DNA from: a virus
Length of the DNA: 43,767 nucleotides
Strand: one strand, 5' to 3'
Virus record (IMG/VR): IMGVR_UViG_3300044619_000813
Span: 1-43,767 of that record
The notes under the pieces were generated by a model. It was not told where the DNA came from. It saw only the letters and a program-made list of their open reading frames with translations, and searched no databases. Below, piece after piece: positions 1 through 43,067 of this stretch. The position numbers were made by a program, and so were the translations under genes. Within the stretch, counting starts at the first letter, position 1. Every line of letters starts with the position of its first letter.

Positions 1-1
1 T

Positions 2-145
2 AATAAATACAATGATGACATTAGTAACCTCTGCCTTGTTACCAGGAAAGATTTGGCTATGTTAAATCGCAATCATAAACAATTACCGCAGGAATTAAAA
101 GAAGTGCAAATATTAATTAATCAGATTAAAGACATTGTAAAATGA
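2..145 (+). CDS. C-terminal fragment of HNH endonuclease (version A allele)
   Basis: An open frame runs from the window edge to a TGA at 143-145 and encodes about 47 residues, including NLCLVTRKDLAMLNR and ELKEVQILINQIKDIVK. These align with the C-terminus of the HNH endonuclease at 34998-35687 (NLCLMSRGELAVLNR, ELREVQQLVNQIKRIA). It is therefore the tail of a diverged allele of that gene, cut off by the window start. Its stop overlaps the start of the next gene (ATGA), whereas in version B a 71-aa gene lies between the two. The catalytic part is outside the window. The homology is clear by eye; activity cannot be judged. Confidence 0.75.
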   Translation, partial: NKYNDDISNLCLVTRKDLAMLNRNHKQLPQELKEVQILINQIKDIVK

Positions 146-375
146 AAAACAAAATTAGTGATTTACGCAACCACCTATTTTCCGTTCTTGAAGAACTAAC
201 CGATCCCGACTCCACCTACGACATTGCCAAAGCCAAGGTTGTGGCAGATGTTGCACAAGTGATTATTAATAGTGCCAGCGTGGAGAACCAGTATTTAAAA
301 ATAGTGGGAGGTAGTCATGGCAGTGGGTTTATTGAGGATAGGAATGAGGTGAAACAAATAAGTGAAAAGAATTAG
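142..375 (+). CDS. conserved phage protein of unknown function, 77 aa (allele A)
   Basis: A small soluble protein, largely helical in appearance, with the pattern ISDLRNHLF..LEEL near the start and AKVVADVAQVIINSA in the middle. I recall similar short proteins in many unrelated tailed phages without a known function. No catalytic motif is visible. It overlaps the preceding HNH fragment by ATGA and is followed directly by the promoter of the small RNA at 396. A second allele at 35844-36077 differs by scattered, mostly silent changes and a few substitutions near the C-terminus, so the protein is under selection. It marks the left border of the region swapped between versions A and B. Confidence 0.8.
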   Translation: MKNKISDLRNHLFSVLEELTDPDSTYDIAKAKVVADVAQVIINSASVENQYLKIVGGSHGSGFIEDRNEVKQISEKN

Positions 376-383
376 AAAAGTAT

Positions 384-391
384 TATATTTA
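384..391 (+). promoter_or_regulatory. -7 promoter element of small RNA A
   Basis: TATATTTA matches the Bacteroidota -7 consensus TAnnTTTG except at the last base. The same TATATTTAC string occurs at the promoters at 3287 and 36121. A start near 396-400 would place the 5' end of the transcript at the first strand of hairpin P1. No clear -33 TTTG is visible. Confidence 0.55.
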
Positions 392-395
392 CATA

Positions 396-498
396 TCCTT
401 TGGAACGGAGTAGACAACGTCTCAAAGGAATTGGAACAGCACAATAATGTTCTAACCCTTGCCCCGATAGATGTCTACCTATTGGGGCATTTTTTTTT
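396..498 (+). ncRNA. structured small RNA / leader, version A
   Basis: The intergenic space folds into three hairpins. P1 pairs 396-402 (TCCTTTG) with 423-429 (CAAAGGA). P2 pairs 431-438 with 448-455 (8 bp with one G-U). P3 pairs 460-470 with 479-489 (11 bp with one G-U, 8-nt loop) and is followed by nine T's. Seven nt inside P1 (410-416, GTAGACA) are perfectly complementary to the last seven nt of the P3 loop (472-478, TGTCTAC). The counterpart at 36131-36231 has the same layout with different sequences. The RNA ends 6 nt before the next start codon, so it could be a free small RNA or a regulated leader. I do not recognise the family. Confidence 0.75.
460..498 (+). terminator. intrinsic terminator, P3 of small RNA A
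   Basis: TGCCCCGATAG pairs with CTATTGGGGCA across an 8-nt loop and is followed by nine T's (490-498). The hairpin is strong and sits immediately before the start codon at 505, so transcription of the downstream cargo from this promoter needs readthrough. The loop holds the 7-nt partner of P1. Confidence 0.85.
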
Positions 499-504
499 AT
501 AATT

Positions 505-1161
505 ATGACAGAAAATAAATTTACTTATGTACAGTACAGTGCAATAAGAGGTTTGTACAAAATTGGATTTACAAGAAAAAGTAATGGTGAAGACAGAAGA
601 AAAAGTGGAACTATTTACTTGCCAGATTTATGTATAATATGTATTTGTAGTTTTGAAACAATAACTGAATCACAACTAAAAAAAATGTATCAAAATAAAA
701 GACAAGATGGAGAATGGTTTGATTTAAATGAAGTTGATTTAAATAAAATTAAATCAATAATGGCAAAAGATGATGAATATTTTGATTCTGAATTAATGCT
801 TGATAAATTAAAATTACAAATAGGTATGTTATGTGAATTACAATATAGAAAAGGTTTACAACATGGTGCAGATTTTACCAAAAGGCAATGGATTACTGAT
901 AAAGAAATTAGTGATTTTAGACATAAAGGATATCCAGAAGGTTTTTCAATTATTCAAGACCCTATTAGTAAATTTAAATGGAAAAATAATGAACGTATAT
1001 TAATGGAAATGGATTCAAGATTTGAAACATTAAAGTATTTATTACAATCTAAAAATTATGAAGAATTTTTAAATCATTCTTTAAGTTTGCAATGGCATAA
1101 AGAATTGTGGAAAGATTATAATTCAAACGATTTAAAACAATCTATAAAAAACAGATTTTAA
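505..1161 (+). CDS. GIY-YIG nuclease-like protein (T5orf172 / MUG113-like)
   Basis: The first 85 residues fit the T5orf172-type GIY-YIG domain: YVQ at 8-10, GLYKIGFT at 16-23, basic residues at 31-33, a Glu/Gln helix around 55-60 and the signature GEWFDL at 69-74. The remaining 130 residues are helical with no recognised motif. Proteins of this type occur as phage accessory nucleases or nuclease-like domains; the target is unknown. The gene is notably more AT-rich than the neighbouring structural genes. Version B has two unrelated genes at this position, so this is exchangeable cargo. Its start lies 6 nt after the terminator of small RNA A, and its stop overlaps the initiator start (TAATG). 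Confidence 0.7.
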   Translation: MTENKFTYVQYSAIRGLYKIGFTRKSNGEDRRKSGTIYLPDLCIICICSFETITESQLKKMYQNKRQDGEWFDLNEVDLNKIKSIMAKDDEYFDSELMLDKLKLQIGMLCELQYRKGLQHGADFTKRQWITDKEISDFRHKGYPEGFSIIQDPISKFKWKNNERILMEMDSRFETLKYLLQSKNYEEFLNHSLSLQWHKELWKDYNSNDLKQSIKNRF

Positions 1162-2084
1162 TGAAATACACAATATCCATAGACCAGACACATAGCATAG
1201 CATGGGGATTAAGTTTAAGCGAAGCTGCAATGTTTAGCTTTTTATACTCTGTGCCATCCTGGGCAGAACAAATATTTGTAGATAATCAAGTATGGTTTTT
1301 TGCAAGTAGAAATAAAGCCATAGATGAAATGCCTATTATTTCAGATAAATCAGATACAGTATATCGTTTATACAAATCATTACAAACTAAAGGAGTAATT
1401 GATTGGAAGAAATTTGGCGAAAAAGATTGTATAAGAATTACGGAAAAAGGTAAGCAATGGAATAGCTTAAATACAACACTCGGAAATAAATCCGATGATA
1501 CTCGGAAAAATATCCGAAAAAAGACGGAAAATAATCCGACATATAATAGTACTAAAGATAATAGTACTATAAATAATAATAAAGGTTGTGAATTTGAAAA
1601 TCCACTCCCAGAAACAAAAATTAAAAATTCTTTTACAAGGCAGTCTATCCTTGATTCTCTGAACACTGACTCTGACCCAAAAGAAAATTTTGCGAAAAAA
1701 GAAAAGGTAGAGCGCGAGCCCTCCGAGACCTACCTCTGCTTTACCGCCTTCGCCTCCACCTATGAACGGCTTGCCGGTGTTACCTATCCCTCTGATAAGA
1801 ATAATTATATAATGACAGCCAAGGATGGTGCAAACTGCAAAAAGTTAATAACATGGCTTAAAAAAGTAAGTGCCAGTGAGCAGGCACCAGACGAAATGGT
1901 GACAATGTTTACCACGGCTGCATGGCAAATAAGCGATAAATGGCTTAAAGCAAACTTTACAATAAGCAATATCTATTCACAGGCAAATAACATTTATACT
2001 AAATTTATGTATTCCAACCCAGCCGCACAGGAGAAGCGGAGGCAGGAGGAAATTGAGAGGCTCGTAAATGAATTTCAACCATGA
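1161..2084 (+). CDS. replication initiator (lambda O-like), version A
   Basis: 307 aa in three parts. Residues 1-105 look like a winged-helix DNA-binding domain (YRLYKSLQTKGVIDWKKFG, then RITEKGKQW). Residues 107-140 are a polar, low-complexity linker whose DNA carries three 22-bp iterons and an AT-rich tract. Residues 141-307 are nearly identical to the C-terminus of the version B initiator at 37824, whose N-terminus is unrelated. An origin inside the initiator gene, between the DNA-binding and partner-binding domains, is the arrangement of lambda O. By analogy the C-terminal part would recruit helicase or its loader. The role is inferred from architecture; no enzymatic motif is present. Confidence 0.65.
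   Translation: MKYTISIDQTHSIAWGLSLSEAAMFSFLYSVPSWAEQIFVDNQVWFFASRNKAIDEMPIISDKSDTVYRLYKSLQTKGVIDWKKFGEKDCIRITEKGKQWNSLNTTLGNKSDDTRKNIRKKTENNPTYNSTKDNSTINNNKGCEFENPLPETKIKNSFTRQSILDSLNTDSDPKENFAKKEKVEREPSETYLCFTAFASTYERLAGVTYPSDKNNYIMTAKDGANCKKLITWLKKVSASEQAPDEMVTMFTTAAWQISDKWLKANFTISNIYSQANNIYTKFMYSNPAAQEKRRQEEIERLVNEFQP
1481..1538 (+). repeat. origin iterons, version A: three 14-bp inverted repeats at 22-bp spacing
   Basis: CGGAAATAAATCCG (1481-1494), CGGAAAAATATCCG (1503-1516) and CGGAAAATAATCCG (1525-1538) share CGGAAAnnnATCCG and start exactly 22 bp apart, about two helical turns. Each has CGGA/TCCG arms. They lie in the linker-coding part of the initiator gene and are the likely binding sites of its N-terminal domain. 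Confidence 0.75.
1539..1582 (+). other. AT-rich tract, candidate DNA unwinding element of origin A
   Basis: Directly after the iterons comes a stretch almost free of G and C that contains two copies of AATAGTACT. Iterons followed by an AT-rich tract inside the initiator gene resembles the lambda origin. This supports origin function but does not prove it. Confidence 0.5.
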
Positions 2085-2320
2085 AACAAACACCTAAAGA
2101 AAAAGCCAAGGAGCTCTTTGACCACTACTATATTTTAATCCAAGAAATTGGAGGTGAATTAGGGCAGGAAATCCTTGTTTCCATCCTCGCAGAACAATGC
2201 GCATTGTTTTTTGCAAGCCAAATGCAAGCGGAAAAGTGGTCACAAAAAAAATACAAAGCATACGAGTACTGGCATGAAGTTGAAGTAGAATTAGTAAACT
2301 ATGCAAATTTTAAACTATGA
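2081..2320 (+). CDS. hypothetical protein, 79 aa
   Basis: A helical acidic/basic protein beginning KQTPKEKAKELFDHYYILI, with a hydrophobic middle (EILVSILAEQCALFFASQM) and an aromatic end. I do not recognise a domain. It overlaps the initiator stop by 4 bp in version A. In version B an extra 116-aa gene is inserted before it. Proteins of this sort are common downstream of phage replication genes in Bacteroidota, which suggests an accessory replication or regulatory role only by position. The right copy at 39127 differs at three silent sites. Confidence 0.75.
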   Translation: MKQTPKEKAKELFDHYYILIQEIGGELGQEILVSILAEQCALFFASQMQAEKWSQKKYKAYEYWHEVEVELVNYANFKL

Positions 2321-2523
2321 CTAAACAAGACCGCAATGCCTATATGCGTGAGTACATGAAGAAGTACCGCGCCACCATGAACGAATATACTTACAAGAAG
2401 ATCCGCGAACGCGAGAACTACCGCCTCCGCGCCAAGTACCATGCCATGAGCAGTGAGGAAAGGCAGAAATACATTGAATACCAAAGAAGCTATCACAAAC
2501 TAAAACAATTTACTAATGAGTAA
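2317..2523 (+). CDS. small basic protein, 68 aa
   Basis: Starts with ATG overlapping the previous stop (ATGA). The sequence is dominated by Arg, Lys and Tyr (MREYMKKYRATMNEY, then RERENYRLRAKYH), giving a strongly basic, probably helical protein that could bind nucleic acid. No named domain was recognised. It is co-translated with its neighbours in the early operon and identical in the right copy at 39363. The function is unknown. Confidence 0.7.
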   Translation: MTKQDRNAYMREYMKKYRATMNEYTYKKIRERENYRLRAKYHAMSSEERQKYIEYQRSYHKLKQFTNE

Positions 2524-3244
2524 TTTAACAAAGTACCAACCGCGAAACTCCGACGAGCAGGCAATTATCTCTGCCCGATCAAATCGCATTGCCAACATGG
2601 AGCAAAAGGACGCGTACAAACAAACATTGAATGTTATCAGCTCCGTGTTTCCAATGTACGGCATTGATGGCGATTTAGCCTTTTATGCAAACATAGCCAA
2701 GGAGATAGTAAAAACATTTGGGCAGATAGCAGCCAATGAGATTGAGATAGCCTTTCGCCTATTCTCCGCAGAAACTTTAGAACTTGATGATGATGTTAAA
2801 TTCTACGGCAAGGCAAATATGCACACCATTGGCAAAATACTAAATGGTTATATGACTTACCGGAGGAAAATAATAGCAAGTCATGACAATGAAGTAGCAG
2901 CACTCCGGCACCAGGTGCAGATGGAGCAAAGGGGAAAGGCAGAAAGAGAGAAGTTGTACGCAGAATTTCCAACTATGATTAAAGAGTTTACCGGTAAGAC
3001 ATGGGAAGATGTGCCTTTATACTGGTATGATATGTGCCTAAAGTTTGACATGATTACATACGAGGAAGGAGAGAAAAGAGCGTTATGGGAAGAAGCACAG
3101 GCCATCGCACTTAAAGAACCACCAGAGTCATTAGACCTTATGACCATCCGCAGCCATGCCAAGAAAATAGAACAGGGAAACATGAAGAGGGCTGTAGTGA
3201 TTGCGCAGAAACTGGCAGTGTGGAGGAAAGTGATAAAAAAATGA
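2516..3244 (+). CDS. hypothetical replication-region protein, 242 aa
   Basis: A mostly helical soluble protein. Residues 30-115 contain the hydrophobic block VISSVFPMYGIDGDLAFYAN followed by KEIVKTFGQIAANEIEIAFRLF. Residues 130-160 are a charged, possibly coiled segment, and the C-terminus is basic. Its place two genes after the initiator would suit a helicase loader or similar replication partner, but there is no Walker motif, so this is only positional inference. It overlaps the preceding gene by 8 bp, and transcription restarts just downstream at the promoter near 3287. The copy at 39562 is identical. Confidence 0.6.
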   Translation: MSNLTKYQPRNSDEQAIISARSNRIANMEQKDAYKQTLNVISSVFPMYGIDGDLAFYANIAKEIVKTFGQIAANEIEIAFRLFSAETLELDDDVKFYGKANMHTIGKILNGYMTYRRKIIASHDNEVAALRHQVQMEQRGKAEREKLYAEFPTMIKEFTGKTWEDVPLYWYDMCLKFDMITYEEGEKRALWEEAQAIALKEPPESLDLMTIRSHAKKIEQGNMKRAVVIAQKLAVWRKVIKK

Positions 3245-3261
3245 AAATAATTTAAATATTA

Positions 3262-3294
3262 TTATGTATATTAAATATATACTTTGTATATTTA
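3262..3294 (+). promoter_or_regulatory. early promoter with TATATTTA -7 box
   Basis: TTATG at 3262-3266 lies 20 bp before TATATTTA at 3287-3294. The ssb promoter has exactly the same TTATG-N20-TATATTT layout (33041-33073). The predicted start, near 3301, is about 30 nt before the ATG at 3333. Confidence 0.6.
3277..3291 (+). promoter_or_regulatory. candidate operator, palindrome ATATAC-TTT-GTATAT
   Basis: A perfect 6-bp inverted repeat with a 3-bp centre overlaps the -7 box. The same 15 bp (17 identical including two following bases) overlaps the -7 box of the promoter at 8342. Two shared palindromes at two early promoters suggest one regulator acting on both. Confidence 0.45.
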
Positions 3295-3332
3295 CAAAAC
3301 AAAATAAATTGTTCACCTTAATAAAAACAAAC

Positions 3333-3596
3333 ATGAACGACATTAGTAAAAGATTTGCATCCTATCTCATGGATGACTATCACATTAAAGGCACAACAGA
3401 GGAAGATGTTGACAAAGCCATTAACAAAATCTTCCGCTACGAATTACTTGACGATGCCCAGCAAGTATTATTTAACGAAATCATGACAGAAGCACTGGAT
3501 GTGCCTTGGATAGCGGAGCAGCTCACCGATGTGTGGGATAGATATAATCAAGAGATTTTAGACTGCAAAAAAGAAGATTATTATGAAAATCGTTAA
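3333..3596 (+). CDS. hypothetical acidic protein, 87 aa
   Basis: The start at 3333 (MNDISKRFASYL) is preferred over an in-frame ATG at 3264 because the promoter -7 box at 3287-3294 lies between the two. The protein is acidic and helical (TTEEDVDKAINKIF, LTDVWDRYNQEIL) with no recognised domain. It is the first gene of the transcript from the promoter at 3287 and overlaps the following gene by 14 bp. The identical copy is at 40379. Confidence 0.7.
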   Translation: MNDISKRFASYLMDDYHIKGTTEEDVDKAINKIFRYELLDDAQQVLFNEIMTEALDVPWIAEQLTDVWDRYNQEILDCKKEDYYENR

Positions 3597-3987
3597 AGGT
3601 GTCGTTAAGTATGGTGCAGGTGCGCCAAGGGAAGGTCAGTATGGGCCTTCAATAAACATCCTGGTAACTCTGGAGGATCAGAGCCAAGTCAGAGTTTACG
3701 GAAAGCCTGGCGATGTTATTGAGCGATACAAGTCTGGGCAAAACATACAGCTAATTGATGACAAAGGCAAATACAAGGTAGTTGAGGATGAGGCACAGAC
3801 ACCTGCTGCACAGGCAGAGCAAAGCGATAAGCCAGACTTGGCTGCAATGGTATTTGAGTTGTCTGCCATTTACTCACAGGCATACATTAACATTTATAAC
3901 AAGATAAGTGAAGGTGGAGTGCCGCATGAAAGTGCAACGGCAGCGACAAGCACTATCTTTATACAAGTATTTCAGAAATTGAGGTGA
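3583..3987 (+). CDS. hypothetical protein, possible OB-fold, 134 aa
   Basis: Residues 1-68 alternate beta-type segments (KIVKGVVKYG, SINILVTLED, QVRVYGKPGD, NIQLIDDKGKYKVVE) in a way that suggests a small OB-like barrel, as in single-strand DNA-binding or primer-binding proteins. Residues 70-85 are an Ala/Gln/Glu linker, and 85-134 form helices. With a RecB-like nuclease two genes later, a DNA-binding accessory role in recombination or replication is plausible but not shown. An intrinsic terminator follows 13 nt after the stop. The identical copy is at 40629. Confidence 0.6.
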   Translation: MKIVKGVVKYGAGAPREGQYGPSINILVTLEDQSQVRVYGKPGDVIERYKSGQNIQLIDDKGKYKVVEDEAQTPAAQAEQSDKPDLAAMVFELSAIYSQAYINIYNKISEGGVPHESATAATSTIFIQVFQKLR

Positions 3988-3999
3988 ATGACTACATAC

Positions 4000-4027
4000 G
4001 AGGCAGTAACTGCGCTGCCTCTTTTTT
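4000..4027 (+). terminator. intrinsic terminator after the 134-aa gene
   Basis: GAGGCAG (4000-4006) pairs with CTGCCTC (4015-4021) across an 8-nt loop, followed by six T's (4022-4027). The 5' arm can alternatively pair with CTGC in the loop, so the hairpin may have two states. The next gene starts 22 nt later without an obvious new promoter, so partial readthrough is likely. Confidence 0.75.
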
Positions 4028-4048
4028 AACAACTTAAAAACAAAACAA

Positions 4049-4297
4049 ATGGCTTTAGAAAGAAAAACATCGTTCGTTGTGTCATTTTATGACGATGAAC
4101 AAGAAAAAATACAAAGCTGGGCATTAACTGGAAGTTCAAGATTAGCTTTATTAGTACATACTATTTCATTTCAAAAAGATAAAATAGAAGCTAATAATAC
4201 AAATAAAGAAGAAATAATTAAATCAGCATTAGATTACCTTATTCATGATTTAAAGAAATTTTTAGAAACACCATATACAACAGAAGAAAATGCTTAA
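4049..4297 (+). CDS. hypothetical protein, 82 aa
   Basis: A small protein beginning ALERKTSFVVSFYDDEQEK with a helical C-terminal half (EEIIKSALDYLIHDLKKFLE). It is AT-rich in composition. No domain was recognised. It lies between a terminator and the RecB-like nuclease gene, which it overlaps by 8 bp, so the two are probably co-translated. The identical copy is at 41095. Confidence 0.65.
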   Translation: MALERKTSFVVSFYDDEQEKIQSWALTGSSRLALLVHTISFQKDKIEANNTNKEEIIKSALDYLIHDLKKFLETPYTTEENA

Positions 4298-5186
4298 ACT
4301 ACCAAGACCACATCTTTCTATCTCTCAGATTAATCTCTGGGAGTCCGATCCATCTGCCTACATGAAAAGGTATTTTCTAAACATACCAGATGCACCTTCC
4401 CCAATGATGGAATTTGGCAAGCAGTTTGCCAGTGACATTGAGGACTATTGCAAAGGAATAAAAAGAGAGTTTAATTTTCCTAATAACTTTCTAAACGATA
4501 TATTAATTTATCCTCATGTTGAGCATAAGTTAGAGTACGATTTCGGTGACTTTAAATTTATTGGGTACATTGACAATGCCTCCGAAAACTTTGAGATTAT
4601 CCGAGACTTTAAAACAGGCACTGCTGCCTGGACACAAGACAGATTAGAAAACAGTTTACAAATGCAAGCCTATAGCTATGTAATATTTCAGCAATATGGC
4701 ATTATCCCTACTTGTTTTATTGATTATTACAAGACAAGGATAAAAGGCAAAAGCATGGAGTGGACAGATGTGCATGAAACATATCAGCATACATTTACTA
4801 TGACTGATTTAGCATTAGTACAAATGAGAATTATTAAAGCAGCGGAGGAAATAGCGGAAGCCTATGAGCTGCATTGTGACCAAGAGTTAGAATCTTTAAT
4901 GAAAAAATATATAGATTGGGATTTGTTAATTAAGGATTGGACAATAAAAAGAGATGGATTAAGAAAGCAAATAGAGCAGCAGCTGCAAAATAGTAGATAC
5001 ATGGTGCAAGTTGATAATAAGGTTTTAAGTTATAGCACCTATGAGAAAAAGTCATATATTCATAGCCCAGAATTACAAGAGAGGGAGGAGCAACTGGCAG
5101 CACAAAAGAAACAAGAAATACTTTACGGTGTAGCAACAGAGGAAACAAAGACAATTACATTGTTAACCGTAAAAGATGCAAAGTGA
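4290..5186 (+). CDS. PD-(D/E)XK nuclease, RecB-like exonuclease
   Basis: 298 aa. The N-terminus (SISQINLWESDPSAYMKRYF) matches the start of RecB/Cas4-type nucleases. The catalytic core is GYID with D95, then RDFKTG with D106 and K108, then the QMQAYSY motif at 124-130. There is no cysteine cluster, so it is not a classical iron-sulfur Cas4. Such phage enzymes resect DNA ends for single-strand annealing recombination or process replication intermediates. The acidic and lysine residues are intact, so it is probably active. It overlaps both neighbours by 4-8 bp. The identical copy is at 41336. Confidence 0.8.
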   Translation: MLKLPRPHLSISQINLWESDPSAYMKRYFLNIPDAPSPMMEFGKQFASDIEDYCKGIKREFNFPNNFLNDILIYPHVEHKLEYDFGDFKFIGYIDNASENFEIIRDFKTGTAAWTQDRLENSLQMQAYSYVIFQQYGIIPTCFIDYYKTRIKGKSMEWTDVHETYQHTFTMTDLALVQMRIIKAAEEIAEAYELHCDQELESLMKKYIDWDLLIKDWTIKRDGLRKQIEQQLQNSRYMVQVDNKVLSYSTYEKKSYIHSPELQEREEQLAAQKKQEILYGVATEETKTITLLTVKDAK

Positions 5187-5593
5187 AAGAGTACAATGCT
5201 CAAATGATGGAGATTAAAGCCTTTTCCGATGAGGTGAACGCATGGATAAGTACAGCGCCAAGCGGAGAAGACCTTGATTCTTGCGACGAGTTTTTAAGAC
5301 AATTATCCGCTTACTATTCTCGTTACACTGTTATCTCTGGCATGAATGAAAGTATTTACTCCCAGTTGCTAATGATGTGCATTCGTGATATGCCAGAGGA
5401 GGAGTATAAAAGAATAAAGCATTCCTCTACTTTGACAGATTACTATGTTAAAGGTAAATATCCAAAGGCTACTGCTATCTTTGAGCAATGCCGGGCCGTG
5501 AAGCAGCTATTACTTATCACCAGTGATAACTACAGAACTTTGCTTAGTAGCTTTCGGCAGGAAAGAATATTAGTAGGTCACATGACTACATAA
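5183..5593 (+). CDS. hypothetical protein, 136 aa
   Basis: Overlaps the nuclease stop by ATGA and is probably co-translated with it. The protein is helical (MEIKAFSDEVNAWISTAPSG, DEFLRQLSAYYSRYTVISGM) with no recognised motif. Position suggests a partner of the RecB-like nuclease, but nothing in the sequence proves it. It is followed by 219 bp without an intact gene and then by a 33-bp repeat. The identical copy is at 42229. Confidence 0.7.
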   Translation: MKEYNAQMMEIKAFSDEVNAWISTAPSGEDLDSCDEFLRQLSAYYSRYTVISGMNESIYSQLLMMCIRDMPEEEYKRIKHSSTLTDYYVKGKYPKATAIFEQCRAVKQLLLITSDNYRTLLSSFRQERILVGHMTT

Positions 5594-5596
5594 GAT

Positions 5597-5758
5597 ATTT
5601 GCAGACCTCGGGTTTAGGTGTTATGTTATTTTCCCCTGATTAGACATTTCTTTCCACCTATTCGCGTCAGAGGATGAATTGGCAGCCTGGAAATAGACAG
5701 GTACTTACCAGTCCAAAGGTTATGAGGAAGCATCTGACACCGTATGTTCATAAAGTAG
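5597..5758 (+). pseudogene. possible decayed small gene
   Basis: No intact gene occupies 5594-5812. One frame reads like a protein but is interrupted: KIFADLGFRCYVIFP, TGA, LDISFHLFASEDELAAWK, TAG, TGTYQSKGYEEASDTVCS, TAA. Both internal stops could arise by a single point mutation. The same bases occur in the right copy (42643-42804), so a random read error is unlikely. It could instead be noncoding leader sequence. The stretch also holds one copy of TTAGACATTT (5640-5649), the 11-bp iteron core seen at 36074. Confidence 0.3.
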
Positions 5759-5775
5759 GCTGGAACGGTGTAATT

Positions 5776-5808
5776 TTAAACCATATCGTTGACGTCAACA
5801 AAATGATA
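5776..5808 (+). repeat. 33-bp direct repeat, copy 1, with palindrome GTTGACGTCAAC
   Basis: A 33-bp unit starting TTAAACCATATC, containing the perfect 12-bp palindrome GTTGACGTCAAC (5788-5799) and ending AAAATGATA. It recurs exactly at 5986-6018. Each copy ends about 4 nt before the inferred start of the following gene (GTG 5813, ATG 6022), so it may be a shared leader/operator or a recombination scar. Confidence 0.8.
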
Positions 5809-5812
5809 AACA

Positions 5813-5989
5813 GTGAAAACATTATTAATTTGTATATTATTACAACTTGTTTTATTTATACCATTTTATTTAATTTGGAGAAACGACTGTAAAGAAATAG
5901 GCAAAGAAAACTTAGCAGTAAGTCTTACTGAAAGATTTATGGCTTGGATATTTTATTGTCCAATTTGGTTAATTGGATTTTTTCGTTAA
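5813..5989 (+). CDS. small membrane protein, 58 aa, GTG start
   Basis: The frame begins GTG-AAA-ACA and encodes KTLLICILQLVLFIPFYLIW, a charged loop (RNDCKEIGKENLAVSLTERF) and a second hydrophobic segment rich in Trp, Tyr and Pro (MAWIFYCPIWLIGFF). Two membrane segments with a polar loop look far more protein-like than the competing frame starting at 5674 or 5803. The stop TAA lies inside the second 33-bp repeat. The gene sits exactly between the two repeats as a removable cassette. The function is unknown. The copy is at 42859. Confidence 0.65.
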   Translation: MKTLLICILLQLVLFIPFYLIWRNDCKEIGKENLAVSLTERFMAWIFYCPIWLIGFFR

Positions 5990-6018
5990 ACCATATCGTT
6001 GACGTCAACAAAATGATA
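5986..6018 (+). repeat. 33-bp direct repeat, copy 2, upstream of thyX
   Basis: Identical to 5776-5808 at a distance of 210 bp, with the palindrome at 5998-6009. Its first bases contain the stop codon of the 58-aa gene and its last bases contain an ATG (6013) in frame with thyX. Confidence 0.8.
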
Positions 6019-6021
6019 CAA

Positions 6022-6663
6022 ATGAAAGTAGAATTATTAGAAATATTTGGCAATGATGAAATGGTAGTTAATGCAGCTCGCGTCAGCTACGGCAAGGACG
6101 CAACCAATTACACCAGTGGCGAGAACAAAAGCCTAATAAATTACCTTGCCTCACATGGTCACACTTCTCCCTTTCGCCATCCGCAAATCCAATACCGGAT
6201 AACTTGCCCTATCTACGTTGAGCGGCAGTTGTTCAAGCACCAAGTAGGCTTATCTGCCAATAGTATCTCTGGTAGATACGTTGATTTCTCTGATACATAC
6301 ACTAAGGTCAATGTATGGAGAAAACAAAGTAAATCAAGTAAGCAAGGCAGCGAAGGTATGTTGTTTACCGATGTGGCAGAGAAGGCAAAGTTTATAGAAG
6401 AGCAAATGATTGACCATGCTAAAAGAGCATATCACACGTTAATAGAACTTGGAGTATCAAAGGAACAAGCGCGTACTATTCTACCGTTAAACTTAAATAC
6501 TACCTTTATCTGGACTGGATCTCTTTACGCGTACATAAATATGTTTAAACTACGCATTGACGCAAATGCCCAGGCAGAAACAAGATATATAGCCATGGAG
6601 ATGCTGCATGAGTTAAAACTTACAAATAAATTTATATTATCTTTAGAAGCATTTCACCTATGA
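6022..6663 (+). CDS. thyX: FAD-dependent thymidylate synthase
   Basis: 213 aa from the chosen start. ThyX makes dTMP from dUMP using methylene-tetrahydrofolate, NADPH and FAD. The ThyX signature appears as KHQVGLSANSISGRY at residues 72-86, preceded by HTSPFRHPQIQYRITCPI. The C-terminal block AQAETRYIAMEML corresponds to the conserved AQ.E.R stretch. The start at 6022 (MKVELLEIFG) fits family N-termini; an ATG at 6013 inside the repeat is possible, and the longer extension upstream to 5944 is repeat-derived. It forms a dTTP supply pathway with the dCTP deaminase at 7416. The copy is at 43068. Confidence 0.92.
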   Translation: MKVELLEIFGNDEMVVNAARVSYGKDATNYTSGENKSLINYLASHGHTSPFRHPQIQYRITCPIYVERQLFKHQVGLSANSISGRYVDFSDTYTKVNVWRKQSKSSKQGSEGMLFTDVAEKAKFIEEQMIDHAKRAYHTLIELGVSKEQARTILPLNLNTTFIWTGSLYAYINMFKLRIDANAQAETRYIAMEMLHELKLTNKFILSLEAFHL

Positions 6664-6965
6664 AAGAAGCTATGCGACACAATGAAAATAAGCTACGCTA
6701 CGACCTTTGCCCAGCCATTGCGCAACGTGAGTATGCCAAAGTGTGGACACAAGGTTTAGAAAAGTATCCTGCCGGTAACTGGGAGAAAGGCTTTGCCTTC
6801 TCTGTTGTCATTGCCTCTGCTATGCGACACCTGGAAGCAATGCGACTTGGTGAAATGATAGACAATGAAAGTGGGCTTTTGCACTCTGCACACTTGATGG
6901 CAAATGCAGCAATGCTAACAGAATTTCATTTTACTCACCCAGAACTAAATGATTTAAAGAAATGA
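6660..6965 (+). CDS. dATP/dGTP pyrophosphohydrolase-like protein (DUF5664 type)
   Basis: 101 aa with the signature of the family annotated as dATP/dGTP diphosphohydrolase N-terminal domain: NENKLRYDLCPAIA, the block LEKYPAGNWEKG, AMRHLEAMRLGE and SGLLHSAHLMANAAML. These are helical MazG-like metal-binding segments. In phages these proteins are thought to shape dNTP pools; substrate and activity here are inferred. It overlaps thyX by ATGA and continues the nucleotide-metabolism cluster. No PurZ-like gene was seen, so there is no sign of 2-aminoadenine DNA. The right copy is cut by the window end at 43767. Confidence 0.75.
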   Translation: MKEAMRHNENKLRYDLCPAIAQREYAKVWTQGLEKYPAGNWEKGFAFSVVIASAMRHLEAMRLGEMIDNESGLLHSAHLMANAAMLTEFHFTHPELNDLKK

Positions 6966-35687: not shown

Positions 35688-35847
35688 GTACAAAGTAGTA
35701 GAAAATCCTTATTATAAAGAATTAGGAGTGTTTGACAAACTATTTGATTTGCAATACAAATTAGAAATGTTTGGCGATGATAAACGCAGAAATGGTAGAA
35801 CAACCCAAGATAATTTTAACGACTTAATTAAAAGATTAACAAAATGA
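35632..35847 (+). CDS. hypothetical protein, 71 aa (version B only)
   Basis: Begins inside the end of the HNH gene (56-bp overlap in another frame) and overlaps the next start by ATGA. It is helical and charged (TKDEARILAEAMAEYKYKVV, FDKLFDLQYKLEMFGDDKRR). No domain was recognised. The version A allele lacks it: there the HNH stop directly overlaps the 77-aa gene. Confidence 0.65.
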   Translation: MRLTKDEARILAEAMAEYKYKVVENPYYKELGVFDKLFDLQYKLEMFGDDKRRNGRTTQDNFNDLIKRLTK

Positions 35848-36077
35848 AGAACAAAATCAGCGACCTCCGCAACCACCTCTTTTCCGTTCTTGAAGAACTG
35901 ACCGATCCCGACTCCACCTACGACATTGCCAAAGCCAAGGTTGTGGCAGATGTTGCACAAGTTATTATTAACAGTGCCAGTGTTGAAAACCAGTATCTAA
36001 AGATAGTGGGAGGTAGTCATGGCAGTGGATTTATAGAGGATAAGAATGAGGTGAAACAAATAGTCGAAAAGAATTAG
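35844..36077 (+). CDS. conserved phage protein of unknown function, 77 aa (allele B)
   Basis: Allele of the gene at 142-375. The proteins differ at only a few positions (for example EDKNEVKQIVEKN at the end), while the DNA has many silent differences (aaaattagtgattta versus aaaatcagcgacctc). This shows purifying selection on the protein and real strain divergence, not an assembly copy. It marks the point where versions A and B part. Confidence 0.8.
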   Translation: MKNKISDLRNHLFSVLEELTDPDSTYDIAKAKVVADVAQVIINSASVENQYLKIVGGSHGSGFIEDKNEVKQIVEKN

Positions 36078-36113
36078 ACATTTATTAGACATTTATTAGA
36101 CATTTTTTAGACA
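36074..36113 (+). repeat. four TTAGACA iterons at exact 11-bp spacing
   Basis: TTAGACA occurs at 36074, 36085, 36096 and 36107, within a TTAGACATTTA unit. The array starts at the end of the 77-aa gene and ends 8 bp before the -7 box at 36121, so it covers the upstream promoter region. Spacing of one helical turn puts all four on one DNA face. Version A has no array; a single TTAGACATTT is at 5640 and 42686. Confidence 0.75.
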
Positions 36114-36120
36114 TTAATTG

Positions 36121-36128
36121 TATATTTA
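36121..36128 (+). promoter_or_regulatory. -7 promoter element of small RNA B
   Basis: TATATTTA, as at the version A RNA and the promoter at 3287, preceded by TTG as in the shared TTGTATATTT half of the early operator. The predicted start is near 36133, at the first strand of hairpin P1. The four 11-bp iterons lie immediately upstream. Confidence 0.55.
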
Positions 36129-36130
36129 CG

Positions 36131-36231
36131 CATTCCTTCCGACAGAGTGATAGCTATCGCAAGGAACAGAGGCAATCCGCATTGTTTCACATGAGTCAAG
36201 TAGTCTATCACCTGCTTGACTCTTTTTTTTT
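36131..36231 (+). ncRNA. structured small RNA / leader, version B
   Basis: Three hairpins in the same order as the RNA at 396-498. P1 pairs 36133-36138 (TTCCTT) with 36161-36166 (AAGGAA) and spans 34 nt as in A. P2 pairs 36169-36176 with 36181-36188. P3 pairs 36193-36203 with 36212-36222 (11 bp, one G-U, 8-nt loop), followed by a T run. Within P1, GTGATAG (36147-36153) is the perfect complement of CTATCAC (36205-36211), the last seven nt of the P3 loop. Sequence is unlike A but the pairing is kept. The next start codon is 13 nt downstream. Confidence 0.75.
36193..36231 (+). terminator. intrinsic terminator, P3 of small RNA B
   Basis: GAGTCAAGTAG pairs with CTGCTTGACTC across the loop TCTATCAC and is followed by a run of T's starting at 36223. 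Stem length and loop length equal those of the version A terminator although the bases differ. Confidence 0.85.
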
Positions 36232-36243
36232 GTAAAAAAAATC

Positions 36244-37122
36244 ATGGATATATTAAACATTGAAGAATCGCATGAACTTGAAAGATGCGAGGTTGTAATT
36301 AAGCAAGGCTTAAATACATTTATTGAGGTTGGAGAAGCCTTATTTCTTATTCGAGATAAAAGATTATATCGAAGGGAATTTAAAACTTTTGAAGATTATT
36401 GCCAACAAAAATGGTCAATGCCACGTCGTCATGTAAATAGAATGATTGCAGCTTCTGAAACAATTATTAATTTGGGACCAATTGGTCCCATTTTACCAGA
36501 ATCAGAAAGTCAGGTAAGACCATTGGTAGGACTTGAAAAGGATGTACAAATAGCTGTATGGAATGATGTTGTACACGAAAGTATAATTGATAATAAAAAG
36601 ATAACTGCAAAGATGGTAGAACAAAAAGCAGAACAATACAAAGAGATTAATGAAATTATTAGTGGTGCAGAAAAATATCCAATGTTTGCAATCAGTACAC
36701 CAGAGGAATTATTAAAGAAAGCTAAAGAAGTAGCGAAGGAAAGAGCCGAAGTAAAGAGACAAATTATTGACCAAAAAGGTAGTACAGAGGTTATACCCTT
36801 AGAAGATTTAGAACTTATTAATAGAATGAAAAATAGTGAAACGGTTGTTTTAAACATGAACACAAATTTTCACGCTATGAAATGGGCAAAGGATAATAAT
36901 AGATTTCAACAAATAGATAGATGGAGTGACTGGGGAAATCCATTTTTAATTGGAGGTGATGGTAATCGTGATAACGTTTGTGAATCTTTCAAAGTATATT
37001 TTAATTTAAAATTAGAATTGAATCAAAAAGTAAAACAATTAAAAGGTAAGGCATTAGGCTGTCATTGTTACCCTTTACGTTGCCATGGTGACCACTTAAA
37101 AAAGTTGGCAGATGGAAACTAA
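36244..37122 (+). CDS. ParB-like N-terminal domain fused to DUF4326
   Basis: 292 aa. Residues 15-125 follow a phage ParB/DUF3102-like helical pattern (EVGEALFLIRDKRLYRREFK, TFEDYCQQKW, RRHVNRMIAASETI, LPESESQVRPLVGLE, KKITAKMVEQKA). Residues 130-195 are a charged linker helix. Residues 199-290 are DUF4326: VVLNMNTNFH, RWSDWGNPFLIGGDG, and KALGCHCYPLRCHGDHL. Conserved WGNPF, GC-C and CHGD residues suggest an enzymatic or metal-binding site in the DUF4326 part; its reaction is not established to my knowledge. It is AT-rich cargo replacing the GIY-YIG gene of version A and overlaps the next gene by 11 bp. Confidence 0.7.
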   Translation: MDILNIEESHELERCEVVIKQGLNTFIEVGEALFLIRDKRLYRREFKTFEDYCQQKWSMPRRHVNRMIAASETIINLGPIGPILPESESQVRPLVGLEKDVQIAVWNDVVHESIIDNKKITAKMVEQKAEQYKEINEIISGAEKYPMFAISTPEELLKKAKEVAKERAEVKRQIIDQKGSTEVIPLEDLELINRMKNSETVVLNMNTNFHAMKWAKDNNRFQQIDRWSDWGNPFLIGGDGNRDNVCESFKVYFNLKLELNQKVKQLKGKALGCHCYPLRCHGDHLKKLADGN

Positions 37123-37822
37123 TATAGATTTTCTTTGTCTTGGTCAAACAGTACCAGAGGAAAGTAAAAAGTACGGCTTAAGAGTTTGTACTGCTGGATG
37201 GGATATAAAAAATGAATGTTTAGTCAGAATATATCCATTAGGAGTAAATAAAGACCATCATTTTAAAAGATGGCATATTTACAAAGACCTTCCTGTAAGA
37301 AATAATCCTAAAGATAGCAGAAAGGAAAGTTGGAGATTAAATATTGACATTACAGAATTAAGCAGTATTGTATGTAAAAAATACGATGCAAATAAATTTG
37401 ATGCATTAAAAATGATGTTTGATTTATATGGCTCAAAAGATATTATAACACTAAACGAAACAAGAAAAAGTTTAGCTATTATTAACATGGTAAAGCCACA
37501 AGGATATTTTGAAAATAAAAGTAAAATTATTCAAAATGTAAATCAGCTATCAATGTTTGAAGACCTTAATTGTAATAATATGTTAGGGAAAAATGGATTT
37601 GATTATTTGCCAAGAATAGAATTTAAGGATGAACTTAATAAGCCTCATAAATTAATGTTTAATTCATGGGATGCTTATATGCACCAAATTAATTTAGCAC
37701 CTAAGTATGGCAAAGATAATTTATGGAATCAATTAAAATTAAGTCCAAAAGACAATAAATTAGCTTTAATTGGTAACATGAATCATCAAAGAAATGCTTG
37801 GTTAATAATTTCAACTTTTTAA
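37112..37822 (+). CDS. hypothetical protein partnered with DUF4326, 236 aa
   Basis: No domain was recognised. Visible features are an N-terminal beta region (METNIDFLCLGQTVPEESKK, GLRVCTAGWD, CLVRIYPLGV), HHFKRWHIYKDLPVRNNPKD with many basic residues, RKESWRLNIDIT and a C-terminal LALIGNMNHQRNAWLIISTF. The Arg/Trp/His-rich conserved-looking motifs suggest nucleic acid binding or an enzyme. The 11-bp overlap with the DUF4326 gene suggests the two proteins act together. It is present only in version B. Confidence 0.6.
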   Translation: METNIDFLCLGQTVPEESKKYGLRVCTAGWDIKNECLVRIYPLGVNKDHHFKRWHIYKDLPVRNNPKDSRKESWRLNIDITELSSIVCKKYDANKFDALKMMFDLYGSKDIITLNETRKSLAIINMVKPQGYFENKSKIIQNVNQLSMFEDLNCNNMLGKNGFDYLPRIEFKDELNKPHKLMFNSWDAYMHQINLAPKYGKDNLWNQLKLSPKDNKLALIGNMNHQRNAWLIISTF

Positions 37823-37823
37823 T

Positions 37824-38735
37824 ATGAATAAGGTAAACAACAAAATAAAGGAAAACTTTACAACTATTCCTAATAGCGTTATAAGGAATAAGGCACTTTC
37901 CGACCGCGCCCGATTCCTTTTTTGTTACATGGCATCCATGCCCAATGATTGGCAGTTTTACCAATCTGCGATGGCAAAGGAACTGGGCTACACAAAGGAT
38001 ACCCTTAGAAAGTACATGGAGGAGTTATTGTCAACTGGATACTTAATAAGGGAACAAAGAAGGGAAAAAGGTAAGTTTGATTCCTACGATTATACCATTA
38101 ATTTTTCACCGTGTATGGAAAATACCGACACGGTAAAAAACGGCAGCGGAAAAATACCGAATCGGGAAAAGTCGACAGTAACAAATAAAGACCTTGAACA
38201 AAGAAAGAATAATACAAATAAAGACTTTAACAAAGGTTGTGAATTTGAAAATCCACTCCCAAAAACAAAAATTAAAAATCCTTTCTCTCGCCAGGCTTAC
38301 CATGATTCTCTGAACACTGACTCTGACCCAAAAGAAAGTTGCGCTAAAGAAAAGGTAAAGGAGCGCGAGCCTTCGGAAACCTACCTCTGCTTCTCCGCCT
38401 TTGCCTCCACCTATGAACGGCTTGCCGGTGTTACCTATCCTTCCGACAAGAATAATTATATCATGACAGCTAAGGATGGTGCAAACTGCAAAAAGTTAGT
38501 AAGTTGGCTAAAGAAAGTAAGTGCAAGTGAGCAGGCACCAGACGAAATGGTGACAATGTTTACCACTGCTGCATGGCAAATCAGCGACAAATGGCTTAAA
38601 GCTAACTTTACTATTAGCAATATCTACTCACAGGCAAATAACATTTATACTAAATTTATGTATTCCAACCCTGCCGCACAGGAGAAGCGGAGGCAGGAGG
38701 AAATTGAAAGACTTGTAAATGAATTTGAAGGATAA
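37824..38735 (+). CDS. replication initiator (lambda O-like), version B
   Basis: 303 aa. Residues 10-90 are a clear HTH_36-like winged helix (FTTIPNSVIRNKALSDRARF, FQSAMAKELGY-like block at 50-60, DTLRKYMEELLSTGYLIRE). The linker (about 95-136) is encoded by DNA with four 16-bp iterons. Residues 137-303 are almost the same as in the version A initiator (YLCFSAFASTYERLAGVTYP, ISDKWLKANFTISNIYSQAN). The N-terminal domain and the origin repeats have been exchanged together while the partner-binding C-terminus is kept. The role is inferred from architecture and the lambda O parallel. Confidence 0.7.
   Translation: MNKVNNKIKENFTTIPNSVIRNKALSDRARFLFCYMASMPNDWQFYQSAMAKELGYTKDTLRKYMEELLSTGYLIREQRREKGKFDSYDYTINFSPCMENTDTVKNGSGKIPNREKSTVTNKDLEQRKNNTNKDFNKGCEFENPLPKTKIKNPFSRQAYHDSLNTDSDPKESCAKEKVKEREPSETYLCFSAFASTYERLAGVTYPSDKNNYIMTAKDGANCKKLVSWLKKVSASEQAPDEMVTMFTTAAWQISDKWLKANFTISNIYSQANNIYTKFMYSNPAAQEKRRQEEIERLVNEFEG
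38116..38178 (+). repeat. origin iterons, version B: four repeats of about 16 bp
   Basis: TGGAAAATACCGACA (38116), CGGTAAAAAACGGCAG (38131), CGGAAAAATACCGAAT (38147) and CGGGAAAAGTCGACAG (38163) line up at 15-16 bp spacing with a consensus near CGGnAAAAnnCCGACA. Their position in the linker-coding part equals that of the version A iterons, but sequence and spacing differ. Confidence 0.6.
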
Positions 38736-38751
38736 TTATAAAATAAAAAAA

Positions 38752-39102
38752 ATGATATACATAATTAAAAGAGCAAGTGATTTTAGAAACAAACGTCCAT
38801 GCGAAGAAGCCGTTTTAAGACCTTTTGAAAATTGGCAAGAACGTTGTTGTACTGAGGAATATTTTAACGAACATTATAGTCAAAGGTTAGGTTTATGGCG
38901 TTCAAAAGGAATAAATCACACTACAACTTTAGATGGCAATATAATAAGGCAGTTAGAAGATAAATTGTTATACATTATTGATATAAATACCTTAGAAGAT
39001 TTGCATAAACTAATTGATAAATATGGAACTCTAATTATTGATAATGGAGATTCTATAAATAAAACACCAACTATTACTATATATGATGATTATATGGAAT
39101 AA
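38752..39102 (+). CDS. hypothetical protein, 116 aa (version B only)
   Basis: The start at 38752 (MIYIIKRASDFRNKRPCEEA) is chosen over an ATG at 38719 that lies inside the initiator gene. Motifs include RPFENWQERCCTEEYFNEHY and LGLWRSKGINHTTTLDGNII, followed by IDINTLEDLHKLIDKYGTLI. The order of strands and helices is unlike any family I know. The gene is inserted between the initiator and the 79-aa gene, which overlap directly in version A, so it is extra cargo. Confidence 0.6.
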   Translation: MIYIIKRASDFRNKRPCEEAVLRPFENWQERCCTEEYFNEHYSQRLGLWRSKGINHTTTLDGNIIRQLEDKLLYIIDINTLEDLHKLIDKYGTLIIDNGDSINKTPTITIYDDYME

Positions 39103-39126
39103 TTATTATATTAAAAACTTAAAACC

Positions 39127-39366
39127 ATGAAACAAACACCTAAAGAAAAAGCCAAGGAGCTCTTTGACCACTACTATATTTTAATCCAAGAAATTGGAGG
39201 AGAATTAGGGCAGGAAATCCTTGTTTCCATCCTTGCAGAACAATGTGCATTGTTTTTTGCAAGCCAAATGCAAGCGGAAAAGTGGTCACAAAAAAAATAC
39301 AAAGCATACGAGTACTGGCATGAAGTTGAAGTAGAATTAGTAAACTATGCAAATTTTAAACTATGA
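39127..39366 (+). CDS. hypothetical protein, 79 aa (right copy)
   Basis: Same protein as the gene at 2081-2320; three silent changes (39201, 39234, 39246). Here it is preceded by the extra 116-aa gene and a short AT-rich spacer instead of overlapping the initiator. Confidence 0.75.
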   Translation: MKQTPKEKAKELFDHYYILIQEIGGELGQEILVSILAEQCALFFASQMQAEKWSQKKYKAYEYWHEVEVELVNYANFKL

Positions 39367-39569
39367 CTAAACAAGACCGCAATGCCTATATGCGTGAGTA
39401 CATGAAGAAGTACCGCGCCACCATGAACGAATATACTTACAAGAAGATCCGCGAACGCGAGAACTACCGCCTCCGCGCCAAGTACCATGCCATGAGCAGT
39501 GAGGAAAGGCAGAAATACATTGAATACCAAAGAAGCTATCACAAACTAAAACAATTTACTAATGAGTAA
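39363..39569 (+). CDS. small basic protein, 68 aa (right copy)
   Basis: Identical to the Arg/Lys/Tyr-rich protein at 2317-2523, with the same ATGA overlap to the preceding gene. No function is known. Confidence 0.7.
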   Translation: MTKQDRNAYMREYMKKYRATMNEYTYKKIRERENYRLRAKYHAMSSEERQKYIEYQRSYHKLKQFTNE

Positions 39570-40290
39570 TTTAACAAAGTACCAACCGCGAAACTCCGAC
39601 GAGCAGGCAATTATCTCTGCCCGATCAAATCGCATTGCCAACATGGAGCAAAAGGACGCGTACAAACAAACATTGAATGTTATCAGCTCCGTGTTTCCAA
39701 TGTACGGCATTGATGGCGATTTAGCCTTTTATGCAAACATAGCCAAGGAGATAGTAAAAACATTTGGGCAGATAGCAGCCAATGAGATTGAGATAGCCTT
39801 TCGCCTATTCTCCGCAGAAACTTTAGAACTTGATGATGATGTTAAATTCTACGGCAAGGCAAATATGCACACCATTGGCAAAATACTAAATGGTTATATG
39901 ACTTACCGGAGGAAAATAATAGCAAGTCATGACAATGAAGTAGCAGCACTCCGGCACCAGGTGCAGATGGAGCAAAGGGGAAAGGCAGAAAGAGAGAAGT
40001 TGTACGCAGAATTTCCAACTATGATTAAAGAGTTTACCGGTAAGACATGGGAAGATGTGCCTTTATACTGGTATGATATGTGCCTAAAGTTTGACATGAT
40101 TACATACGAGGAAGGAGAGAAAAGAGCGTTATGGGAAGAAGCACAGGCCATCGCACTTAAAGAACCACCAGAGTCATTAGACCTTATGACCATCCGCAGC
40201 CATGCCAAGAAAATAGAACAGGGAAACATGAAGAGGGCTGTAGTGATTGCGCAGAAACTGGCAGTGTGGAGGAAAGTGATAAAAAAATGA
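39562..40290 (+). CDS. hypothetical replication-region protein, 242 aa (right copy)
   Basis: Identical to the helical protein at 2516-3244. The context downstream, including the promoter and palindrome, is also the same. Confidence 0.6.
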   Translation: MSNLTKYQPRNSDEQAIISARSNRIANMEQKDAYKQTLNVISSVFPMYGIDGDLAFYANIAKEIVKTFGQIAANEIEIAFRLFSAETLELDDDVKFYGKANMHTIGKILNGYMTYRRKIIASHDNEVAALRHQVQMEQRGKAEREKLYAEFPTMIKEFTGKTWEDVPLYWYDMCLKFDMITYEEGEKRALWEEAQAIALKEPPESLDLMTIRSHAKKIEQGNMKRAVVIAQKLAVWRKVIKK

Positions 40291-40307
40291 AAATAATTTA
40301 AATATTA

Positions 40308-40340
40308 TTATGTATATTAAATATATACTTTGTATATTTA
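40308..40340 (+). promoter_or_regulatory. early promoter and palindrome operator (right copy)
   Basis: Copy of the promoter at 3262-3294: TTATG, 20 bp, TATATTTA at 40333-40340, with ATATAC-TTT-GTATAT at 40323-40337. Confidence 0.55.
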
Positions 40341-40378
40341 CAAAACAAAATAAATTGTTCACCTTAATAAAAACAAAC

Positions 40379-40642
40379 ATGAACGACATTAGTAAAAGAT
40401 TTGCATCCTATCTCATGGATGACTATCACATTAAAGGCACAACAGAGGAAGATGTTGACAAAGCCATTAACAAAATCTTCCGCTACGAATTACTTGACGA
40501 TGCCCAGCAAGTATTATTTAACGAAATCATGACAGAAGCACTGGATGTGCCTTGGATAGCGGAGCAGCTCACCGATGTGTGGGATAGATATAATCAAGAG
40601 ATTTTAGACTGCAAAAAAGAAGATTATTATGAAAATCGTTAA
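40379..40642 (+). CDS. hypothetical acidic protein, 87 aa (right copy)
   Basis: Identical to the gene at 3333-3596, with the start again placed after the promoter box and not at the upstream in-frame ATG. Confidence 0.7.
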   Translation: MNDISKRFASYLMDDYHIKGTTEEDVDKAINKIFRYELLDDAQQVLFNEIMTEALDVPWIAEQLTDVWDRYNQEILDCKKEDYYENR

Positions 40643-41033
40643 AGGTGTCGTTAAGTATGGTGCAGGTGCGCCAAGGGAAGGTCAGTATGGGCCTTCAATA
40701 AACATCCTGGTAACTCTGGAGGATCAGAGCCAAGTCAGAGTTTACGGAAAGCCTGGCGATGTTATTGAGCGATACAAGTCTGGGCAAAACATACAGCTAA
40801 TTGATGACAAAGGCAAATACAAGGTAGTTGAGGATGAGGCACAGACACCTGCTGCACAGGCAGAGCAAAGCGATAAGCCAGACTTGGCTGCAATGGTATT
40901 TGAGTTGTCTGCCATTTACTCACAGGCATACATTAACATTTATAACAAGATAAGTGAAGGTGGAGTGCCGCATGAAAGTGCAACGGCAGCGACAAGCACT
41001 ATCTTTATACAAGTATTTCAGAAATTGAGGTGA
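40629..41033 (+). CDS. hypothetical protein, possible OB-fold, 134 aa (right copy)
   Basis: Identical to the gene at 3583-3987 and followed by the same terminator. Confidence 0.6.
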   Translation: MKIVKGVVKYGAGAPREGQYGPSINILVTLEDQSQVRVYGKPGDVIERYKSGQNIQLIDDKGKYKVVEDEAQTPAAQAEQSDKPDLAAMVFELSAIYSQAYINIYNKISEGGVPHESATAATSTIFIQVFQKLR

Positions 41034-41045
41034 ATGACTACATAC

Positions 41046-41073
41046 GAGGCAGTAACTGCGCTGCCTCTTTTTT
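41046..41073 (+). terminator. intrinsic terminator (right copy)
   Basis: Copy of the GAGGCAG/CTGCCTC hairpin with T run at 4000-4027. Confidence 0.75.
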
Positions 41074-41094
41074 AACAACTTAAAAACAAAACAA

Positions 41095-41343
41095 ATGGCT
41101 TTAGAAAGAAAAACATCGTTCGTTGTGTCATTTTATGACGATGAACAAGAAAAAATACAAAGCTGGGCATTAACTGGAAGTTCAAGATTAGCTTTATTAG
41201 TACATACTATTTCATTTCAAAAAGATAAAATAGAAGCTAATAATACAAATAAAGAAGAAATAATTAAATCAGCATTAGATTACCTTATTCATGATTTAAA
41301 GAAATTTTTAGAAACACCATATACAACAGAAGAAAATGCTTAA
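41095..41343 (+). CDS. hypothetical protein, 82 aa (right copy)
   Basis: Identical to the gene at 4049-4297; overlaps the nuclease gene by 8 bp. Confidence 0.65.
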   Translation: MALERKTSFVVSFYDDEQEKIQSWALTGSSRLALLVHTISFQKDKIEANNTNKEEIIKSALDYLIHDLKKFLETPYTTEENA

Positions 41344-42854: not shown

Positions 42855-42858
42855 AACA

Positions 42859-43064: not shown

Positions 43065-43067
43065 CAA

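Follow-up and report, generated by a model that had tools for sequence, protein, structure and literature searches.

A structured RNA of uncultured phages with a conserved pairing between its 5' hairpin loop and its terminator loop

The locus

The window analysed here spans all 43,767 bases of an IMG/VR virus contig. The structural genes, for portal, terminase and major head protein, lie on its minus strand, and genes for SSB, HNH, thymidylate synthase and dCTP deaminase on its plus strand. It is among these plus-strand genes that the RNA lies, between genes and in the orientation of both its neighbours (Table 1). Two arrangements are present. Behind the 77-aa gene come, in one, RNA A and the gene for a MUG113 protein of 218 aa and, in the other, RNA B and the gene for a DUF4326 protein of 292 aa. 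The right end of the record repeats the left, positions 2077-6721 being equal to 39123-43767 at 99.94%, and this, together with the repeated 77-aa gene, makes it most likely that the record is a wrap-around assembly joining two strain variants of a single locus (1-6721 and 35700-43767), which differ in RNA and cargo and match at 99.94% downstream. The earlier note on this DNA had spoken of two alleles of one locus; most likely this holds in the sense of two strain variants, and not in that of two copies in one genome.

The 77-aa protein matches phrog_2044, which is labelled 'RNA polymerase beta subunit', a label that we find doubtful since the protein has no Pfam match and is so small. Directly 3' of its gene there are TTAGACATTTA direct repeats in variable copy number (36076-36117 in the window; also in L007, L018, L021, L024, L025, L028 and L029).

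Table 1. Features of the two variants in the window
Feature	Position	Strand	Basis
77-aa gene, used to fetch homologous loci	142..375	+	phrog_2044 match
Promoter box A TATATTTA, Bacteroidota -7 type TAnnTTTG	384..391	+	box present at 116 loci
P1 hairpin of RNA A, apical loop of 14 nt	396..429	+	fold; P1 pairs covary in relatives
GTAGACA, kissing pairing, P1-loop side, RNA A	410..416	+	exact complement of 472-478
P2 hairpin of RNA A	431..455	+	fold; 8 bp conserved with covariation
P3 intrinsic terminator of RNA A: 11-bp stem, 8-nt loop, T tract	460..498	+	fold; covarying stem
TGTCTAC, kissing pairing, terminator-loop side, RNA A	472..478	+	family-wide match, covariation, compensated changes
ORF behind RNA A, 218 aa, MUG113 / GIY-YIG-like domain	505..1161	+	Pfam MUG113, E=2e-6; ATG 12 nt past model end
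77-aa gene, second allele	35844..36077	+	about 92% DNA identity to first allele
Promoter box B TATATTTA	36121..36128	+	box survey of loci
P1 hairpin of RNA B	36133..36166	+	fold
GTGATAG, kissing pairing, P1-loop side, RNA B	36147..36153	+	pairs with 36205-36211
P2 hairpin of RNA B	36169..36188	+	fold
P3 intrinsic terminator of RNA B: 11-bp stem, 8-nt loop, T tract	36193..36231	+	fold; terminator scan
CTATCAC, kissing pairing, terminator-loop side, RNA B	36205..36211	+	pairs with 36147-36153
ORF behind RNA B, 292 aa, DUF4326	36244..37122	+	Pfam DUF4326; ATG 18 nt past model end

Both RNAs lie where the note had located them, and folding agrees with the shared plan that it had drawn for them, P1, P2 and a P3 terminator (z-scores of -5.4 for RNA A and -4.5 for RNA B). 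The P3 hairpin proper spans 460-489 in RNA A and 36193-36222 in RNA B, followed in each case by T9. In both RNAs, as had been claimed, seven nucleotides of the P1 loop have their exact complement in the terminator loop, and the two 7-mers of RNA A do not occur again in the window. That the bases of A and B differ completely is an overstatement, as their 7-mers share a leading GT that is nearly invariant across the family.

An RNA family of uncultured viruses

Using the 77-aa gene as a probe we obtained 80 viral loci, most of which hold an RNA of the same plan between this gene and the next. A covariance model (R1) that includes P1, P2 and P3 and leaves out the long-range pairing recovered 70 strong sense-strand copies from these loci and the window, 78 copies from loci fetched by DNA patterns of P1, and 13 more from loci fetched by additional patterns. 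The sets of 70 and 78 give 148 copies and 83 distinct RNAs, from uncultured viral contigs, and several phages hold two RNAs, 1.4-2.5 kb apart. The P1 patterns fix P1 bases and the GT of its loop and leave the terminator loop free, so that they do not select for the complement. Most rows of another alignment (A1) had been chosen with a complementarity filter, and for this reason the R1-selected sets, and not the pair counts of A1, are used as proof. Weak minus-strand matches of R1, which arise from the palindromic P1, were dropped.

Rfam 15 gave no match at or above the gathering threshold for the window or for L204, L207, L215 and L260; the top sub-threshold match, in a permissive search, was AgvB, with 20.6 bits against the 56 needed. 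We found no description of the RNA in the open literature. Its description as an unrecognised structured RNA is supported. The check that had been proposed, collecting the loci around homologues of the 77-aa gene and building a covariance model, has thus been carried out, with P1-P3 covariation as its outcome. We class it as an RNA family of its own, which would represent a new form of leader control in phages; it is probably an on/off leader of a kind not described before.

Conservation and compensation of the loop-loop pairing

In each of the 83 distinct RNAs an unbroken Watson-Crick match joins the P1 loop to the P3 loop, of 7 nt in 75 cases, 8 nt in six and 6 nt in two, and the kissing 7-mers come in about 20 sequence versions. 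Among the terminators of the same contigs that lie outside the family, none of 136 has an upstream 7-mer complement to its loop (this control began with 137 hairpins, of which the single exception, L166, was later confirmed as a family member). The pairing kept in 83/83 relatives against 0/136 other terminators excludes chance, as had been argued from A and B alone, and homologues lacking the complementarity, which would have spoken against the proposal, were sought and none was found among the 83 distinct RNAs.

The pairing is also recovered without any assumption about structure. A mutual-information scan of 73 aligned RNAs (about 4,000 column pairs) places five variable loop-loop pairs in its top nine, the rest of the nine being pairs of the P3 stem; it also gives one further covarying pair, within the P1 loop (L1.2-L1.13). 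When RNAs at least 85% alike outside the kiss are compared, all 39 differences within the kiss are compensated, these being pairwise comparisons and not independent events, with nine distinct replacements. The clearest are a G-C to C-G change between L007 and L029, whose remaining sequence is 99% alike, and an A-U to U-A change between L065 and L067 (97% alike). The conservation and compensation proposed for this pairing are therefore seen throughout the family, and the RNA carries what marks a kissing-loop RNA, a pair of hairpin loops whose Watson-Crick complementarity is conserved and maintained by compensating changes.

The kind of pairs allowed bears on the nature of the molecule. The 489 kiss cells comprise 475 Watson-Crick pairs, four G-U and ten others; the stems accept many G-U pairs, and all helices together hold 155 G-U cells and 25 C-A cells, a ratio that points to a sense-strand RNA. 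The same ratio speaks against a palindromic DNA site for recombination or protein binding, a reading that the near-perfect inverted repeat of P1 and the exchange of the cargo behind it could suggest; since, in addition, a promoter box and a terminator flank the element at all loci, we give it hardly any credence.

We are almost as sceptical of a switch in which the kiss competes with a local hairpin of the P1 segment, as the earlier note had suggested. Such a hairpin can be folded in both A and B, and local pairing is slightly above that of allele-swapped controls (3.4 vs 3.0 bp), but the longest stem is at most 3 bp in 26 of 49 distinct P1 domains and shows no covariation.

Promoter, start codon and cargo

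Upstream of the RNA, a TAnnTTT(A/G) box is present at 116/116 distinct loci, at a distance of 10-12 nt in 115 of them and of 5 nt in one, the background frequency of TAnnTTT[AG] being 0.002 per position. This box is the -7 consensus of Bacteroides and Flavobacterium (PMC7366714), from which we infer that the host is probably a member of Bacteroidota. Searches by terminase, by tail and in host genomes yielded no host name. In a screen of 395 Bacteroidota genomes, which carries little weight for want of a positive control genome, the covariance model matched none, and the DNA patterns gave three matches, which is not above the backward control. Isolate phages gave no DNA match, and only one distant relative of the 77-aa protein.

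The other end of the RNA is equally constant. All 116 loci have an intrinsic terminator between promoter and ORF, as a classical attenuator does, and an ORF starting with ATG 7-27 nt 3' of the RNA. An ORF start within 40 nt behind the terminator is found for 70/70 family members vs 41/116 other terminators. The gap between RNA and ATG is short for another promoter, and in 7/116 cases a T-run within it matches the loose box. The link to the downstream gene that the note had considered is hence supported by attenuator-like placement at every locus. One natural version without the RNA was observed: L023 (around 4237) has the 77-aa gene and the promoter TATCTTTG, with the ATG of the ORF about 40 nt behind the box.

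The first downstream genes fall into ten unrelated sequence groups (about ten families), which include ParB-like and methyltransferase proteins, HTH/DnaD-like replication initiators, HNH-AP2 endonucleases, HNH-helicase fusions, DUF4326, MUG113 and unknowns, and a single identical RNA sequence can be found before up to three unrelated genes. HNH/AP2-type endonuclease genes stand directly behind the RNA in L009, L013, L017, L026, L039, L044, L047, L093, L121, L129 and L241, and such endonucleases may drive the exchange of cargo.

This variety weighs on two further readings. The RNA could be a free small RNA whose loops act as regulators of other mRNAs, of phage or host, the adjacent ORF being incidental. 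Its own promoter and terminator at every locus fit this idea; against it, the ATG follows 7-27 nt behind the RNA at all 116 loci and before ten unrelated gene groups, and no consistent second 7-mer match was seen near the RNA or in the loci, so that we judge it improbable. Some 7-mer alleles are about twofold over-represented in the loci, without a common site; the local excess of matches, considered as a set of second targets, came from a few conserved gene words and was rejected. The RNA could also form multimers through loop-loop contacts, as phi29 pRNA does, or prime replication beside a replication initiator gene. Each molecule does have two complementary loops, and many copies precede replication-initiation genes. 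The RNA is, however, also found before HNH, methyltransferase/ParB-like and unknown genes, and some phages hold two different versions, which leaves little room for a multimer or a primer.

A proposed kissing contact between the leader and its terminator

We favour, with somewhat more confidence than doubt, a portable promoter-leader-terminator module that would control read-through into the next gene and in which a kissing loop would tie the 5' hairpin to the terminator. A leader RNA of about 100 nt would be transcribed from its own Bacteroidota-type promoter and fold into P1, P2 and the intrinsic terminator P3, ending 7-27 nt before the start codon. The majority of transcripts would end at P3 and be set free as short RNAs, the downstream phage gene being expressed through read-through only, which would be allowed under some condition. 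The P1 loop and the terminator loop of one molecule would form a 7-bp kissing helix, P1, which is made first, capturing the P3 loop on its exit from RNA polymerase. Through this order of events the kiss would couple the 5' domain to terminator formation and set or switch read-through, in either direction and presumably in answer to a signal.

Such a leader would not be a classical attenuator, because no conserved antiterminator competing for the bases of the terminator stem was found in the family, the P3 stem columns covarying with each other only. The conserved long-range pairing reaches the terminator loop alone and therefore does not exclude the terminator stem, unlike a classical antiterminator. 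The family shows an unusually clean covariation of a tertiary contact located on the terminator itself, and it makes a question testable: can termination be controlled by a kiss with the terminator loop while the stem stays intact?

Geometry leaves space for another partner. By a rough A-form estimate, the linkers of 6-10 nt plus P2 are barely long enough for a straight coaxial stack, or else the RNA has to bend; because an intramolecular kiss would be taut or bent, two molecules may pair with each other instead. The 7-mers, moreover, have diversified more than a purely local contact needs, which counts against a leader acting in cis. The terminated RNA might then act in trans, its loops kissing those that complement them on a second copy, whether nascent or free; RNA concentration would feed back on expression, or phages with the same 7-mer would be excluded, in the manner of ColE1 RNAI/RNAII or P4 CI RNA. 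We take this alternative, with the consequences attached to it, to be possible though rather unlikely. It accords with the taut geometry, with the roughly 20 versions of the 7-mer in related phages, with the uniqueness of the RNA A 7-mers within the window, and with the loops of two-RNA phages, which are always non-cognate (cross-match of at most 4 nt vs 7-8 nt for their own). This cross-match is, however, not below that of permuted pairs (p=0.55), and a contact in cis is favoured by local concentration. Selection for orthogonal loops in two-RNA phages is not supported by this comparison.

A more specific version, to which we assign a small chance, is that the short RNA counts itself: in trans, its two loops would kiss leaders of its own version while these are being made, and so set the termination of phage early genes, with the 7-mer as an identity tag. 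If true, the tag would separate the two modules within one phage as well as co-infecting phages. The family also supplies natural collections of leader versions that do not pair with one another; they come from phages in which gene control has hardly been studied.

Relation to known systems

Classical attenuators and transcriptional riboswitches have the same series of promoter, structured leader, intrinsic terminator and ORF, but their antiterminator shares bases of the terminator stem, whereas here the loop alone is paired. The earlier note had compared the RNA with lambda OOP, a small phage RNA near the replication region. The comparison does not fit, OOP being antisense to a phage gene and the present RNA a sense leader directly upstream of a start codon, for which we saw no second consistent loop target. 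The loops of ColE1 RNAI and RNAII are 7 nt long. They pair over their full length, and specificity depends on the loop sequence, which can be diversified (PMC9458437). These are sense and antisense RNAs of a plasmid, however, whereas here one RNA carries both loop partners.

Two phage systems come closer in arrangement. In the leader and CI RNA immunity of P4 (seqA, seqC), RNA-RNA pairing in the leader controls premature termination before replication genes (PMC4825925), and the likeness lies in a phage RNA with in-leader pairing tied to termination. P4 CI, however, arises by processing of the leader and has two pairing partners outside itself, whereas the partners here are two loops of one RNA, one of them the terminator loop. 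No match to P4 CI or c4-type phage antisense RNA was found with the covariance models (c4 is in Rfam). In Gifsy-1, IsrK starts at a prophage promoter and ends as a short RNA at an intrinsic terminator, and its read-through form encodes downstream genes (PMC4825925). The plan of promoter, short RNA, terminator and read-through is shared, with the short form acting on the long one; as described there, though, IsrK works by opening translation of the read-through mRNA and not through a 5' hairpin that kisses a terminator loop, and the host group is another. We would therefore see a likeness in part to the working of P4 CI, IsrK and the ColE1 kissing loops, to which no defining sequence feature links the RNA.

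Divergent members and a separate element

Looser patterns, in which nothing but the promoter box, CTTT, GT and AAAG was fixed, led to two more groups. P2 is a different one in L229, L247 and L260, and their kiss is 9 bp long GTGATGTAC. The genes on either side of the RNA in L229 and L247 do not resemble those of the first group, and the next ORF belongs to phrog_5931 (unknown function) and looks ParB-like by eye; L260 has a phrog_4652 protein behind the RNA. In L207, P2 is short and again different, the kiss comprises 8 bp GTAGGAGT, and the ORF behind the RNA looks, likewise by eye, like a replication protein. What is kept across these four divergent RNAs is the kiss of 8-9 bp, the promoter and the site before an ATG, while the sequence and P2 vary.

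A separate element made of a promoter and hairpins was observed in L171 (minus strand, rc 4072), L189 (rc 4706), L204 (rc 4112) and L215 (rc 981). The L204 and L215 elements have no Rfam match. It consists of TATATTTG, a hairpin CTTTAC...GGTTT...AAAGG and a second hairpin with the loop ACC(C/A)G(T/A)AA, and its GGT could pair with the ACC of that loop. In L215 the element precedes a 79-aa ORF.
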